Source: an uncultured Alphaproteobacteria bacterium (GTDB taxonomy: Bacteria > Pseudomonadota > Alphaproteobacteria > Methylaequorales > Methylaequoraceae). From it: a DNA stretch of 64,000 nucleotides. Both the position numbers and the translations under genes were made by a program. Positions 21,938 through 27,120 of the stretch are shown in pieces. The notes beneath the pieces are model-generated. The model made no database searches. It saw nothing but the letters and a program-made list of their open reading frames with translations, and was not told the DNA's origin. Location of the stretch: NCBI GenBank assembly GCA_902522465.1, contig CABYVV010000007.1, positions 1-64,000 of the forward strand, in the 5' to 3' direction. The number at the start of each line of letters is the position of its first letter. Position 1 is the first letter of the stretch.

Positions 21938-22020
21938 ATACATATATTTGCTTTTTTGCATTTGTACAAACCGACTTTTAAAAACATCTTTATTGTTTTA
22001 AGTCTTTGTGGAGGAAGATG

Positions 22021-22332
22021 ATGAAAGGTCTATTCTTTGGAATATTAAGTCTTTGGCTTATTATTTCTAAAGCTGCTCTAGCTGGAGACATCGAAGCAGG
22101 TAAGGCTCGTTATGCACAAAACTGCGGAAATTGTCATGGTCCGGGAGGCATGGGATTAGCAAGTTACCCTAAGATTAAAGGTAAAGAAGTTCCATATCTC
22201 GTAGACAGACTAAAAACCTACAGAGCAGGTACCAAAGTTGGACCTAATTCCGATCTTATGATTATGATGGCTCAACCATTGTCTGATGTAGAAATTGCGA
22301 ATTTAGCCGCGTATTTGAATGCGCAAAAATAA
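22021..22332 (+). CDS. Small periplasmic class I cytochrome c
   Basis: A monohaem cytochrome c of about 103 residues. A signal peptide (MKGLFFGILSLWLIISKAALAG) is followed by the haem motif CGNCH and, 60 residues on, a Met (MMAQPLSD) as likely distal ligand. The start at 22021 places GGAGG six bases upstream; a TTG at 22006 would give a longer but poorly supported protein. It lies 36 bases before a PQQ-type dehydrogenase and is the obvious candidate to accept its electrons. Codons are richer in G and C than in neighbours, suggesting strong expression. Confidence 0.9.
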   Translation: MKGLFFGILSLWLIISKAALAGDIEAGKARYAQNCGNCHGPGGMGLASYPKIKGKEVPYLVDRLKTYRAGTKVGPNSDLMIMMAQPLSDVEIANLAAYLNAQK

Positions 22333-22368
22333 TAACATTAACATTAATAAAAAAAGGGAGATTATTTA

Positions 22369-23673
22369 ATGATTAAAAAATCTAAACTTTTATCAGCAGC
22401 GGTTGTAGCTACTGCAGCCCTAATGGCTTCACCAAGTCACGCTGATACAATGAATACCCCAAATATTAGTGCAATGTCTATCATGAATGGTTTAGAAAAC
22501 CCATGGGATATGGCTTTCACTAATGGTGGTGACATGTTTGTTACAGAAAAATGTAAAGGTTTATCTGTAAAAACAAGTTCAGGTTCAGTACACGCTCTTG
22601 CTGGTATGAAAGGTTCTAAAGGTTACGCAAGTACTTTTAATGATCTTTTCTGCTCTGGTCAAGCCGGTATGATGGGAGTTGCTTTAGATCCTAATTTTAA
22701 TAAAAACAGAAGGATTTATGTTGCATCTACATCAGATAAATACCACGGTAGTGGTTGTAAAACTAACTTCGAAAAATGTGATGGAAACATCATCATGAGA
22801 ATGGAAGTTAGCAAAGACATGAAAAGCGTTTCTAACCGTGTTGATATTGTAAAAGATATACAATACAAACCATTTGAGTCTAATCACCCATTCGGTGGTC
22901 CAGGTGCTCACAATGGTAATAGGTTACGTTTCGGTCCTGAGGGCTATCTTTGGGCAACTACTGGTGACCGTCACAGAGGTGTAGTACCACAATCACCAAA
23001 ATTACTAGGTGGTAACGTACTAAGAATCGATACTGATGGTAAAGCTCATCCAGGTAACAAGCCTCCAAGAGGTTTTGACAAGCGTATGTACACATACGGA
23101 CACAGAAATGTTCAAGGTATCGACTTCCGTCCAAGTGATGGAAGAGCATTTACTGCGGAACATGGTCCATGGCAGAATGACGAAATCACTGCACTAGTTA
23201 ATGGTGGTAACGGTGGATGGGACCCTCGTCCAAATGTTGGAGGCCGTGGTGATTGTCCAGACAAATACTGTGGTTACATGCCTAATCAAAAAGAAGGTAT
23301 GCTTCCTGCAAAACGTGCTCAATTCATGCCAATGAGTGACACACGTTTCAGTGACTTAATGCCACCAGCATGGAACAACAACGGTCTATCACAAGGTACT
23401 GGTTCTGCTGCTTTCTTAAAAGGCAGTAACTGGGGTTACTGGGAAGGTAGAATGGCTGTTGGAATCATGGGTATTGGTTTCGGTGGAACACCTTCTGGTA
23501 TGAGAATTGACGTTGTTGATATTGCTAAAGATGGCCAATCAATTAAAAGCGTTATTCACATGCCAACTGGCTTAACTAAGAGATTCAGAGGACTTCGTCT
23601 TGGTCCTGATGGGGCTCTATATGCTGCAGTAGATGAAGGAGAAATCTACAAAATCACTGCAACTGCAAAGTAA
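22369..23673 (+). CDS. Soluble PQQ-dependent sugar/aldose dehydrogenase-type beta-propeller
   Basis: A 434-residue exported protein (signal peptide ending SPSHADT) of the sGDH/Asd family, a six-bladed propeller that oxidises sugars or related compounds with PQQ. Family landmarks are GLENPWDMAF, GQAGMMGVALDPNF, GPGAHNGNRLRFGPEGYLW, GHRNVQGIDF, the metal/PQQ region EHGPWQNDEI and the final RFRGLRLGPDGALY. Cysteines are unusually numerous (FCSG, GCKTNFEKC, GDCPDKYC). It is not an eight-bladed methanol dehydrogenase (no XoxF-type Cys-Cys or tryptophan-docking repeats). The ribosome binding site is AAGGGAGA. Codon use suggests high expression. The substrate is unknown. Confidence 0.85.
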   Translation: MIKKSKLLSAAVVATAALMASPSHADTMNTPNISAMSIMNGLENPWDMAFTNGGDMFVTEKCKGLSVKTSSGSVHALAGMKGSKGYASTFNDLFCSGQAGMMGVALDPNFNKNRRIYVASTSDKYHGSGCKTNFEKCDGNIIMRMEVSKDMKSVSNRVDIVKDIQYKPFESNHPFGGPGAHNGNRLRFGPEGYLWATTGDRHRGVVPQSPKLLGGNVLRIDTDGKAHPGNKPPRGFDKRMYTYGHRNVQGIDFRPSDGRAFTAEHGPWQNDEITALVNGGNGGWDPRPNVGGRGDCPDKYCGYMPNQKEGMLPAKRAQFMPMSDTRFSDLMPPAWNNNGLSQGTGSAAFLKGSNWGYWEGRMAVGIMGIGFGGTPSGMRIDVVDIAKDGQSIKSVIHMPTGLTKRFRGLRLGPDGALYAAVDEGEIYKITATAK

Positions 23674-23845: not shown

Positions 23846-23922
23846 GGCGGAGTAGCTCAGGTGGTTAGAGCAGCGGAATCATAATCCGCGTGTCGGGGGT
23901 TCAAGTCCCTCCTCCGCTACCA
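23846..23922 (+). tRNA. tRNA-Met (CAU), elongator type
   Basis: 77 bases including an encoded CCA. The cloverleaf folds: acceptor GGCGGAG/CTCCGCT (one G-U at the end), D stem GCTC/GAGC, anticodon stem GCGGA/TCCGC with loop ATCATAA (anticodon CAT), T stem GGGGG/CCCTC with TTCAAGT loop. The 1-72 pair and D-loop differ from initiator tRNA, and the body matches alphaproteobacterial elongator tRNA-Met rather than tRNA-Ile2. Its 3' half is duplicated at 26318-26369. Confidence 0.95.
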
Positions 23923-23927
23923 TGAAA
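23876..23927 (+). repeat. attL-like 52-bp direct repeat (3' part of tRNA-Met)
   Basis: Identical to 26318-26369 over 52 bases, from the anticodon stem through CCA and five bases beyond. This copy completes the functional tRNA gene, as at a tRNA-targeted integration site. Confidence 0.92.
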
Positions 23928-23984
23928 CGCCTACTCACATTGACATTCCAAGATGATCTGTTTTATAACAACACTCAACAAACC

Positions 23985-24001
23985 GAGTGAGTATGAGTGA
24001 G
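23985..24001. repeat. GAGTGAG pair, possible arm-type integrase sites at left end
   Basis: Two direct GAGTGAG copies at 23985-23991 and 23995-24001; the first is embedded in ACCGAGTGAGTAT, which recurs at the right end. They start 57 bases inside the left tRNA repeat. Confidence 0.5.
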
Positions 24002-24033
24002 GGTAGGGGTTATAATATTTTGTATCTTTCTGT

Positions 24034-25512
24034 TTAATTAGATCTATAAAACTTAAGTGCAGCAATAGTATTAGGACTTTCACCGATTATTAAAATACAT
24101 ACAAGTACAAAACTAGAAATATACAAAATTGGAACAAAGAATTTAAAAAAGTCGTTAATCCTTTTAACCTTGATACTGTCATTTAAGTACCTGTAAATAT
24201 AGATTGATCCAATAGTTGGTATACTCGAGAAAAAATAAGATAAAAGTATGATTAAATCCATAATTGTAAGATAAGACAACTTTGGTAAATCTTTATCAAC
24301 TATGAACGTGTATGCAATTAGTGAAAGTAGGCAAACTATACTTACAGTAAGACGTGCCTCAATTTCTTTTGGATTTATCCAAAATACACTCCAAGAGACT
24401 AATAAAATGATAATAATAGGAAGATAAACTTTTGATAGAAAGTACATATAGTTTCTCTCAATATTTGTGATATAGGTTATTCCAACCTGATACGTATCTG
24501 CTCCTACATCCTTGACATAAAAATAATCATAACCTATTGAAATTTTCTCCCATTCCTGCATTTTTAAATTTTCAAAACCTCTTATTAGTTCCTCTATAGT
24601 GTAAGGACTAAAATATGGAAGAGTCCTGTATGTCGCACTTAGGTTATTAGAATTACTTTGAAATTTAAAAATAATTTTTTGTGAATCAAATGGGAATGAT
24701 TTGAAATCAAAATTAGATTTAAATGTTCCAATTCCATCGATTTCTTTGCGTATCTCTAAATAATCACTGCCATCATCGAAAAAATTTGGCATAAAATCCA
24801 GTTCATACAAAATCTCAGTTGAATCACCTTCTAATGAAACTTTATTTGCTATAATTATATCAGGTTCGTAAATATCTAAATCTTGGAATTTTTCTTTTTT
24901 ATATTGACAAAAATAAGTCCAATCTTCTTTCTTTAGTTTTGAATCAAATTTCTTTGCTTTTTCATAAATTCTTCTTCCTAATTTGGTTATTCTTTGGTCA
25001 TCCCAAACTAACGTATGTAAAAAACTTACTTTATATCTTGATAATTTTGAATCAATTTGATCAATTTCTCGTGTTTCAAAGTTAACTAAAACATATTGGA
25101 CATCATATTCTTTTTCTAAAAGTTGAATTTCTTGTTCGTAAAATTTTATAATAATATCTTTATTCTCTAATTCTTTTTCGATTTCATCATCGTTCAAATC
25201 TCTAACCTTTTTGTGATTTAATTCCAGTATAGTTGTATTGGGTTCTATCTGAAATTTTTCATAAACTTCTGGATGCAAAGACTCTAAAATAATATTGTTC
25301 TCTAATGTTCTTTCTAGTTTCATTTCATTTAAATCCCATTTTAAAAAAATTCCACTCATTTTTTCCTTTCTTATGTCTGGTTCATCAAGTGAAAGTTTAT
25401 AAGTTTCTTCTTTAATTAAATTATAAAGTTCTCCACATTCATCAAAATTATCTAATGAATAAACCTTACTAAAAAAAGAAAGGATTAAGGAAAACATTAA
25501 TATTCTTTTCAT
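24034..25512 (-). CDS. Pentameric ligand-gated ion channel (Cys-loop superfamily, prokaryotic) with PDZ-like N-terminal segment
   Basis: A 492-residue exported membrane protein. After a signal peptide (1-19), residues about 50-125 look like a PDZ domain (NTTILELNHKKVRDLNDDEI resembles the ILEINGKxV carboxylate-loop side). A charged linker (about 140-205) leads to a beta-rich ligand-binding domain with the Pro-loop FPFDSQ at 273. Four membrane helices follow: M1 about 358-377 with the conserved Pro, M2 about 385-405, M3 about 413-439, M4 about 455-477. SWSVFWINPKEIEAR and LPKLSYLTIMD closely resemble GLIC/ELIC (WSVFW, LPRLxYTT.ID). The two Cys-loop cysteines are absent, as in bacteria. Cation-selective gating is plausible; the ligand is unknown. 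It overlaps the upstream PrsW gene by four bases. Confidence 0.87.
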   Translation of the reverse strand: MKRILMFSLILSFFSKVYSLDNFDECGELYNLIKEETYKLSLDEPDIRKEKMSGIFLKWDLNEMKLERTLENNIILESLHPEVYEKFQIEPNTTILELNHKKVRDLNDDEIEKELENKDIIIKFYEQEIQLLEKEYDVQYVLVNFETREIDQIDSKLSRYKVSFLHTLVWDDQRITKLGRRIYEKAKKFDSKLKKEDWTYFCQYKKEKFQDLDIYEPDIIIANKVSLEGDSTEILYELDFMPNFFDDGSDYLEIRKEIDGIGTFKSNFDFKSFPFDSQKIIFKFQSNSNNLSATYRTLPYFSPYTIEELIRGFENLKMQEWEKISIGYDYFYVKDVGADTYQVGITYITNIERNYMYFLSKVYLPIIIILLVSWSVFWINPKEIEARLTVSIVCLLSLIAYTFIVDKDLPKLSYLTIMDLIILLSYFFSSIPTIGSIYIYRYLNDSIKVKRINDFFKFFVPILYISSFVLVCILIIGESPNTIAALKFYRSN

Positions 25513-26162
25513 TTATATTTCTTTTCTTTTTCTGTTAATTTTAGTTTTTGTTTTTCCTTCAACTCATTATGCAGTCTTTTAGTATTTAAAAAAATAAAAA
25601 TTAGCAATCCTATTCCTAGTAAACTGTAACTAATCAAAAAATTATATGATGCATGAATAACTATTGGAATAAAAATACTCTTTAGAAGATAGGATTTTTT
25701 TTCTGAAAAAAAGTGTAAACCAAAATAGAAACCCATTGTTATTCCACAAAATGCATGTAACGGAATTGCAGTGACAGATCTGATCATTGCAATTTCCATA
25801 GAATCATATCCCATTAAATATACATATTCATAATTTTCTAATGTAGCAAAACCTAGTGATATTAATGTTCCATAAACAATGCCATCCATTGGTTCGTTGA
25901 AATGAGATTGTTTACGGATATAAAAATATAGTGCTAAGAATTTTAAAGTTTCCTCTGTAAAACCAGCAATATAAGTAACAGAGGAGGGATCTTTATTGCT
26001 AAAAATTAACAATTGATTTAGTATGCCTGCTGGAAAAATTAGAAGAATACCAACAACAAAGGATTTGATTATCATTCCACTTGGTTCCTTAAACCTATCA
26101 CTGTAGATAATGTAACTTAGAATTATAAGCGGTGGGGCAAAAGTCATTAAAAAAATATTCAT
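25509..26162 (-). CDS. PrsW-family intramembrane metalloprotease
   Basis: A 217-residue multi-pass membrane protein of the PrsW/CPBP-like group. The putative active-site motifs are intact: EETLK at residues 70-74 (EExxK), a Glu-Asn in TLENYEYV (109-110), HAFCG at 136-140 (HxxxG) and IVIHASYNF with His 170. About seven hydrophobic helices are apparent. PrsW of Bacillus performs site-1 cleavage of the anti-sigma factor RsiW. Its stop overlaps the start of the channel gene (ATGA), so the channel is translated right after it. No sigma or anti-sigma gene is nearby, so the channel or a host protein could be the substrate (inference). Confidence 0.87.
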   Translation of the reverse strand: MNIFLMTFAPPLIILSYIIYSDRFKEPSGMIIKSFVVGILLIFPAGILNQLLIFSNKDPSSVTYIAGFTEETLKFLALYFYIRKQSHFNEPMDGIVYGTLISLGFATLENYEYVYLMGYDSMEIAMIRSVTAIPLHAFCGITMGFYFGLHFFSEKKSYLLKSIFIPIVIHASYNFLISYSLLGIGLLIFIFLNTKRLHNELKEKQKLKLTEKEKKYK

Positions 26163-26248
26163 AATAAGATAATCATAATAAGTAATTTTTTAAAATTCAA
26201 TTTAACGGTGTCTAAAACTTATTAGTAAATTAATATAAATAGAGATAT

Positions 26249-26268
26249 GAGTGAGTGTACCGAGTGAG
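26249..26268. repeat. GAGTGAG pair, possible arm-type integrase sites at right end
   Basis: Direct copies at 26249-26255 and 26262-26268; the second lies in ACCGAGTGAGTAT (26259-26271), identical to the left end. They finish 49 bases before the right tRNA repeat. Confidence 0.5.
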
Positions 26269-26317
26269 TATTTGTCATAAATGTATAGTTTACAAGGGTT
26301 TGGAGTTGTGTCACAAT

Positions 26318-26369
26318 GAATCATAATCCGCGTGTCGGGGGTTCAAGTCCCTCCTCCGCTACCATGAAA
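26318..26369 (+). repeat. attR-like 52-bp direct repeat (tRNA-Met 3' fragment)
   Basis: An exact copy of 23876-23927. The 5' half of the tRNA is missing, so this is not a functional tRNA gene but the displaced 3' end left by integration. Confidence 0.92.
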
Positions 26370-26394: not shown

Positions 26395-27120
26395 ATGGTG
26401 ATTTTCCTTAAAACGTTAAGAAAAAAAATTAAAAGTTCTTATATTTTTAACATCTTACAAAATTTATTTTTTACTCCATTAAAATCATATTCTGATGCGT
26501 TCGGAGAAGATCTATTTGTTAATAATTACTTTAGCAATATCTCAAAAGGAATTTACGTTGATGTTGGTTGTAATCAACCAAAAATTAATTCCTTAACTTT
26601 TAAACTACATAAAAAAGGATGGAATGGGTTAAATTTTGATATTTCAGAAAGATGTATAAATCTTTATAATTTTTTTAGGAAAAATGACAAAAATTATAAC
26701 ATATCAGTCGGTAATAAAGAAAAACTAGTAAATTCCTTTATATTTTACGAAAACTGCACCATGAACACTGTTGATGAAAATTTTAAAAAATATACAACTA
26801 AAAGTGTTAACAAAGACCCTGAAACTAAAAAAATTTTTCAAAAAACACTTAACAGAATATTACTTGAAAACAAGATTTCAAAATTTGATTATCTGAATAT
26901 TGACGTAGAAGGATATGAGATTAATGTTCTTGAGGGGTTTTCAATTAAGCAATTCAAACCATCTTTAGTTTCAATTGAAATACATGACAAAGATTGTCCA
27001 CCAATAAAAAATAAGATTTATAAATACTTTATAAAGAATAATTATAACTTAGTTGCAATATACGGATGGACATATTTTTTTGAATTTAAAGAGAATAAGA
27101 AAATTCATTTTGAAATTTAG
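26395..27120 (+). CDS. FkbM-family SAM-dependent methyltransferase
   Basis: A 241-residue methyltransferase. The SAM-binding motif I region is YVDVGCNQPKINSLTFKLHKKGWNG, with the FkbM-type LNFDIS acidic strand, and the later FDYLNIDVEGYEINVLEGF is the family hallmark. FkbM enzymes O-methylate sugars in surface glycans or natural products; the substrate here is unknown. The gene begins 26 bases after the right tRNA repeat and is the first gene of an accessory-looking stretch. An accessory role in surface glycan modification is plausible. Confidence 0.85.
   Translation: MVIFLKTLRKKIKSSYIFNILQNLFFTPLKSYSDAFGEDLFVNNYFSNISKGIYVDVGCNQPKINSLTFKLHKKGWNGLNFDISERCINLYNFFRKNDKNYNISVGNKEKLVNSFIFYENCTMNTVDENFKKYTTKSVNKDPETKKIFQKTLNRILLENKISKFDYLNIDVEGYEINVLEGFSIKQFKPSLVSIEIHDKDCPPIKNKIYKYFIKNNYNLVAIYGWTYFFEFKENKKIHFEI

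Follow-up and report, generated by a model that had tools for sequence, protein, structure and literature searches.

The first 64 kb of contig CABYVV010000007.1, from an uncultured, streamlined marine alphaproteobacterium (GenBank assembly GCA_902522465.1; 1.33 Mb in 35 contigs, 87% complete), were analyzed as a single window, and we describe here a short cassette inserted at the tRNA-Met gene of this stretch, whose cargo is a PrsW-family protease gene and a pentameric ligand-gated ion channel (pLGIC) gene (Table 1). The tRNA-Met(CAT) gene is the sole tRNA identified in the window by ARAGORN. Its 3′ half, from the anticodon loop to 5 nt beyond the CCA, recurs downstream as an exact 52-bp direct repeat, the two copies being 2442 bp apart, and this repeat far exceeds every other repeat of the region in length. 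Between the copies lie only two open reading frames (ORFs) of at least 80 aa, and neither the ORF list nor Pfam revealed an integrase or transfer gene there. The stop codon of the PrsW gene and the start codon of the channel gene share 4 bp (ATGA). These results bear out an earlier note, made from the letters alone, which had reported the repeated tRNA-Met 3′ half about 2.4 kb downstream and a cargo made up entirely of a coupled PrsW and pLGIC pair. A foreign base composition was considered and rejected, as the island has a GC content of 27.1%, ordinary when compared with 28.8% for the window.

Table 1 Features of the tRNA-Met locus and its inserted cassette.
Feature	Position	Strand	Basis
tRNA-Met(CAT), integration target, intact	23846..23922	+	ARAGORN
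Left copy of 52-bp attachment core, anticodon loop to CCA plus TGAAA	23876..23927	+	exact repeat
Left arm-type direct repeats GAGTGAG, +58 and +68 from core	23985..24001	+	repeat analysis, shuffles
pLGIC, 492 aa	24034..25512	-	Pfam; best PDB sequence match ELIC; AlphaFold and Foldseek; hydropathy
PrsW-family intramembrane metalloprotease, 217 aa	25509..26162	-	Pfam PF13367, E=1.6e-32
Right inner end, 93% identity to the corresponding stretch of the G005 element	26244..26317	+	sequence comparison
Right arm-type direct repeats GAGTGAG, -69 and -56 from core	26249..26268	+	repeat analysis, shuffles
Right copy of 52-bp core (attR type), same sequence as left copy	26318..26369	+	exact repeat
FkbM methyltransferase, host neighbor, directly after the tRNA in empty-site relatives	26395..27120	+	Pfam; synteny in G001, G002, G004, G007, G009, G011, G012

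Cassette ends and occupancy of the tRNA-Met site

Inward of the 52-bp cores, both ends of the cassette contain a pair of short direct repeats. The sequence GAGTGAGT occurs three times in the window, every time at the island ends, and ACCGAGTGAGTAT is common to the right and left ends; a shared 13-mer was reached in 1 of 600 shuffles, and the left tandem has a shuffle-derived p value of 0.004. In G019, which belongs to another genus of the family and carries unrelated cargo, the repeat GTTTGACAC is found at +58/+68 and -68/-54, and in G017 the repeat GTT[AT]GACA is found at +58/+68 and -68/-55. The offsets are thus near-alike in the window, G019, and G017, and the repeat sequences differ. A +58/+68 pair is also present in G021 and G016, one copy at +58 is kept in G009, G011, and G012, and no arm repeats were found at those offsets in empty sites. 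The agreement between the window and G019 at all four arm sites has a probability of ~2e-5, a rough estimate that supposes uniform placement. The left end of the G019 element is found at tRNA-Met only, with no other match of meaningful E-value in 33 genomes.

In the phage attachment site (attP) of a lambda-type integrase, a core lies between arms of paired direct repeats. Judged by sequence, the ends of the cassette are organized like a complete tyrosine-integrase attP, with a core and arm-type repeats on both sides, and the repeats look like docking sites of an integrase. Because a core with paired arms is lambda-type attP anatomy, the cassette would keep everything needed in cis and no trans component. 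The left boundary of the core is also that of the tRNA-Met attP copies in IMG/VR phages. What is new here is that the core is flanked on either side by a pair of arm-type repeats.

The tRNA-Met site is empty in four genomes of the same genus: the FkbM gene follows the tRNA after 32-34 bp in G001 and G002 and after ~150 bp of non-coding DNA in G004 and G007. Other relatives have other occupants. A 1.2-kb insert in G009 (same genus) encodes an FkbM-type methyltransferase and ends in a degraded 51-bp repeat (84%), followed by the host flank of an empty site; a 1.9-kb insert in G019 encodes an Adhesin_E protein and small ORFs (repeat 94%), and a 1-kb insert in G017, also of another genus of the family, encodes a secreted protein (repeat 92%). 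The contig of G005 (98%) begins inside its element; the right inner end matches that of the window over 74 bp, and the cargo end encodes a NucS_C-type PD-(D/E)XK nuclease (PADLOC PDC-S02, 8e-30), a candidate for a role against phages. G005 and the window share ends but not cargo, and the same ends therefore carry different cargo. Only the left end and an 84-aa ORF are left in G011 and G012, in which the right repeat is lost. A recognizable left end, full or partial, lies right after the tRNA in ~14 of the family loci examined. The pLGIC is present in 1 other of 145 relatives and this PrsW in no other family genome, so neither gene is fixed at the site. The empty and otherwise occupied sites of relatives therefore identify a hot spot of turnover by small integrase-less cassettes, in line with the tRNA-targeted insertion without an integrase that the earlier note had proposed. 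Two small ORFs recur just after tRNA-Met (L042, L043, L050, L052 and L045, L055): the 84-aa ORF is common to cassettes or remnants of G011, G012, G021, and G028, and a 123-aa ORF with three transmembrane helices is common to G014 and G031.

We therefore consider the feature, with a probability of roughly 0.72, to be a 2.39-kb non-autonomous, site-specifically integrated cassette whose ends are the halves of a complete tyrosine-recombinase attachment site and which was moved by an integrase acting in trans. The exact repeat, the empty or otherwise occupied sites in relatives, the conserved ends, and the lack of an integrase at the site are direct observations. The donor of the integrase was probably either a temperate phage or an island with its own integrase that later departed; its enzyme would have recombined the cassette attP with the host tRNA-Met, leaving the tRNA whole and a 52-bp repeat at the far end. 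We infer both the helper in trans and current mobility.

Source of the integrase and alternative origins

The host assembly contains two Phage_integrase genes (314 and 306 aa), which are XerC/XerD-like by size alone. The earlier note had proposed looking in the same genome for an integrase aimed at this tRNA; integrase genes of Xer size are indeed there, and neither is at tRNA-Met. In IMG/VR, the tRNA-Met 3′ half was present in 84 contigs, in many of which homology begins at the same anticodon position. Three of these phages have a Pfam-confirmed tyrosine integrase ~0.55 kb away, and in one of the three (L133) a gene for a T7-like RNA polymerase lies beside the integrase. With a GC content of 47-50%, the three show that phages use this attachment site; they are not the helper of a host with 29% GC. 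The tandem-repeat matches L273-L275 were rejected as helper candidates, having no tRNA nearby and no visible tRNA-Met core. A short iteron-like array of GTTAGACAGA repeats in IMG/VR (L273:1050-1130) resembles the arm repeats of G017 and G021.

Several results weigh against movement in trans. Within the family, no integrase was found next to tRNA-Met; the IMG/VR phages that carry this attP all have a GC content of at least 38%, though the hosts are low-GC; and searches of IMG/VR and GTDB contigs with the motifs of the right and left ends and with the arm repeats did not find a helper. Homology among the left ends of G016, G017, G019, and G021 means that their shared geometry is not independent; the window and G019 form the more independent comparison, yet even their left spacers match at 23 of 57 bases (p=0.016). 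The comparison is of one genome per species and so gives no view of excision or of polymorphism within a species. Finally, the PrsW-pLGIC pair is absent from the flanks, most of them only ~1.5 kb long, of ~40 other pLGIC genes and 10 other PrsW genes. Nor was an autonomous relative sharing the attachment ends found in IMG/VR or in 33 related genomes, collections that are incomplete for this clade.

The lack of both an integrase and a helper would also be expected if the cassette were the decayed remnant of a larger prophage or island at tRNA-Met that lost its integrase and most of its genes by deletion, leaving two useful genes. The genomes are streamlined, and remnants do exist at the site, as in G011 and G012, where the left end is kept and the right repeat lost. 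In the window, however, both ends are intact with their paired arms and the cores are identical over 52 bp, and G005, G009, G017, and G019 have the same small integrase-less form with other cargo, for which independent deletions would need the same stop points. We consider such decay unlikely. The earlier note had left the choice between a satellite mobilized in trans and a fixed remnant; movement in trans is favored because the core is retained together with paired arms at conserved distances, and the search for its helper came back empty.

The helper could instead be an integrase-bearing genomic island of the genus and not a phage. Integrase islands of relatives are situated at tRNA-Leu, tRNA-Ser, and tRNA-Thr, in addition to a family defined by a 389-aa ORF without a nearby tRNA; such integrases are found in G001, G003, G004, G006, G007, G009, G010, G011, G019, and G020, and the pLGIC of G007 is cargo of one such island. 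None of them, however, is at tRNA-Met, their presence does not track occupied tRNA-Met sites, and a search near them showed neither a clear arm pair at +58/+68 nor an arm sequence that matched, with arm motifs near integrases of the genus amounting to isolated single copies. An island helper thus appears improbable. The 389-aa integrase ORF (~396 aa as an open frame; L186, L187, L188) is common to G003, G011, and G019 (and G006), has no tRNA within the stretch examined, and in some copies adjoins restriction or DNA-methylase-like genes.

The earlier note had not recognized an island of this type, but both tRNA-repeat cassettes and integrase-less islands have been described. Cassettes that enter tRNA genes and leave a tRNA direct repeat are known from additive genomic islands of streamlined marine Actinobacteria (Ca. 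Actinomarinales; PMC7771536), and tRNA-Lys repeats of such cassettes from Methylophilaceae (PMC10872708). The window resembles these in its insertion at a tRNA 3′ end with a distal direct repeat and in having relatives with empty sites or other cargo; it differs in that single tRNA-Met cassettes of 1-2.4 kb have conserved ends and paired arms, and neither arm-type sites nor a non-autonomous attP figures in the passages on such islands consulted in the two papers. In Dehalococcoides, cis-mobilizable elements and ssrA islands likewise have attachment repeats and no integration module (PMC3146451) and are presumed to move together with related elements or through their action. There, integrase-bearing relatives lie in tandem at the same site and a serine recombinase acts at the transfer-messenger RNA (tmRNA) gene, whereas for the window cassette no autonomous relative was found and the geometry points to a tyrosine recombinase. 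Tycheposons, as defined in PMC10872708, have a tyrosine recombinase and measure 4-200 kb; they are known from Prochlorococcus, and the Methylophilaceae fGI-3 lies at tRNA-Met. They are similarly tRNA-adjacent cargo elements of streamlined marine bacteria with tRNA-Met among the tRNAs used, but membership is ruled out for a cassette of 2.39 kb without a recombinase. Cassettes in tRNA genes and cis-mobilizable islands are therefore known; what is unusual is how small the cassette is, its fixed arm geometry, and its cargo.

Movement in trans suggests how very small genomes may swap single operons at one tRNA while keeping only an attachment site that is read by the enzyme of another element, and non-autonomous cassettes could be sought by the conserved arm spacing, a signature open to testing. 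Since known prophages are often missing from marine microbes, such cassettes may also point to the phages that move them.

Cargo genes and their possible role

The channel is predicted to comprise a signal peptide, an N-terminal periplasmic extension of ~110 aa, a ligand-binding β-sandwich, and four transmembrane helices. Neur_chan_memb (PF02932) scored above the Pfam cut-off (E=3.6e-7) and Neur_chan_LBD (PF02931) just under it (E=2e-5). By sequence, ELIC is the closest solved relative (E=1e-17), and the predicted structure matched GABA-A receptor chains in the PDB (Foldseek E=4e-19, probability 1.00). The model, built from ten sequences, has a mean predicted local distance difference test score (pLDDT) of 58, with confident transmembrane helices and a poor N-terminal region of 110 residues. 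The features of pLGIC membership are present, namely the ligand-binding domain, the four-helix transmembrane domain, and the Pro-loop (FPFD), as in ELIC, GLIC, and DeCLIC. DeCLIC also has an extra N-terminal periplasmic domain, a likeness of position that need not reflect homology; unlike all three, the window channel is encoded with PrsW on a mobile cassette. No PDZ match was found in its N-terminal extension, where pLDDT is mostly <50. Only more distant channels, those of two related alphaproteobacteria (G287 and G364; L212:8661-10013 and L213:7941-9326), match PDZ_2 weakly in this periplasmic domain (E=0.0015, below cut-off), making a PDZ-pLGIC fusion possible in them.

The protease scores above the PF13367 cut-off, and the motifs EETLK, HAFCG, and HASYN can be read from its protein sequence. 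It shares the Pfam PrsW-protease domain and the EExxK, HxxxG, and HxxxN motifs with PrsW site-1 proteases, such as the RsiW-cleaving PrsW of Bacillus, and differs in having a channel gene as its partner and no sigma or anti-sigma gene in the cassette.

Both families are rare in the class: pLGIC genes were found in 11/385 genomes at E<=0.001 (six over the curated cut-off) and PrsW in 9/142. The earlier note had suggested a signal-sensing or regulated-proteolysis module or an anti-phage membrane effector, and had named absence of the pair elsewhere as evidence against its reading; the pair being absent from the flanks described above, a conserved PrsW-pLGIC module is not supported. No pLGIC was found in named phages and plasmids, or in IMG/VR by peptide patterns. 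The closest pLGIC relative, in G007 (47% identity over 200 aa), is located where a contig begins, on an island that ends at tRNA-Thr beside a 451-aa integrase and contains MrcB_N/AAA (5e-30) and McrBC (1e-31) genes. This island (L192; G007:C10, 1-14389) also encodes a TerB-like protein, two large coiled-coil membrane proteins, and a trypsin-like protease that matches PADLOC RT-Protease_XI.

Most likely the coupled operon encodes an accessory sensor-effector of the membrane: a signal from the periplasm or the membrane would act on the channel, and PrsW might cleave the periplasmic extension of the channel, or a partner, to license or release it; perhaps the system acts against phages by depolarizing the cell. 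In such an anti-phage role, infection would cause the channel to open or PrsW to cleave. Defense systems commonly employ membrane effectors and proteases, the sibling cassette of G005 carries the PDC-S02 nuclease, and the G007 pLGIC lies beside McrBC and the protease matching a defense-associated reverse transcriptase-protease model. However, neither PrsW nor the pLGIC has a PADLOC or PHROG match, the pair is not conserved elsewhere, other tRNA-Met cassettes have cargo that does not look like defense, and the limited set of literature searched contained no paper tying PrsW or pLGICs to phage defense. A defense role, suggested by the genomic company of the two genes and not by the proteins themselves, is plausible but less likely than not, and we rate the infection-triggered scheme no higher.

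Somewhat better placed, if still short of even odds, is ordinary accessory sensing, by which the channel would detect a small molecule, protons, or calcium and an unrelated protease would have joined the same cassette. Solved prokaryotic pLGICs (GLIC, ELIC, DeCLIC) respond to protons, amines, or calcium (for DeCLIC, PMC9897478), and a pair that is not conserved fits such a joining. The 4-bp overlap and the lack of other genes, by contrast, imply co-expression, and the rarity of both families makes chance joining unlikely though possible. If PrsW-pLGIC is a defense or signaling unit, it would give a new role to bacterial relatives of nerve receptors. A broader scheme, in which streamlined marine Alphaproteobacteria harbor a family of miniature split-attP cassettes, each made up solely of a tRNA-Met core with paired arms at set distances and one or two cargo genes, moved in trans by phage integrases and shuttling single-operon anti-phage systems that include a PrsW-licensed receptor channel, is a speculative extension that we think improbable as a whole.

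Neighboring genes

Several family genomes have, next to integrases and tRNA-Met, a recurrent ORF of ~81-117 aa for a small membrane protein with the sequence MKDFLKIFKWFERN (L186:9761-10009, L187:11492-11740, L188:12340-12672, L192:12575-12928, L050:2806-3066, and L051:1794-2039). A glucose/sorbosone dehydrogenase gene adjoining cytochrome c (window 22006-23673; L045, L047, L049, L051, L053, L056) is absent at the tRNA-Met site in several genomes, lies upstream of tRNA-Met in the genus of the window and some others, and lies downstream in G018, G025, and G029. Its protein is 81-97% identical between genera, and the neighboring genes are mostly 40-80% identical between the same genera.

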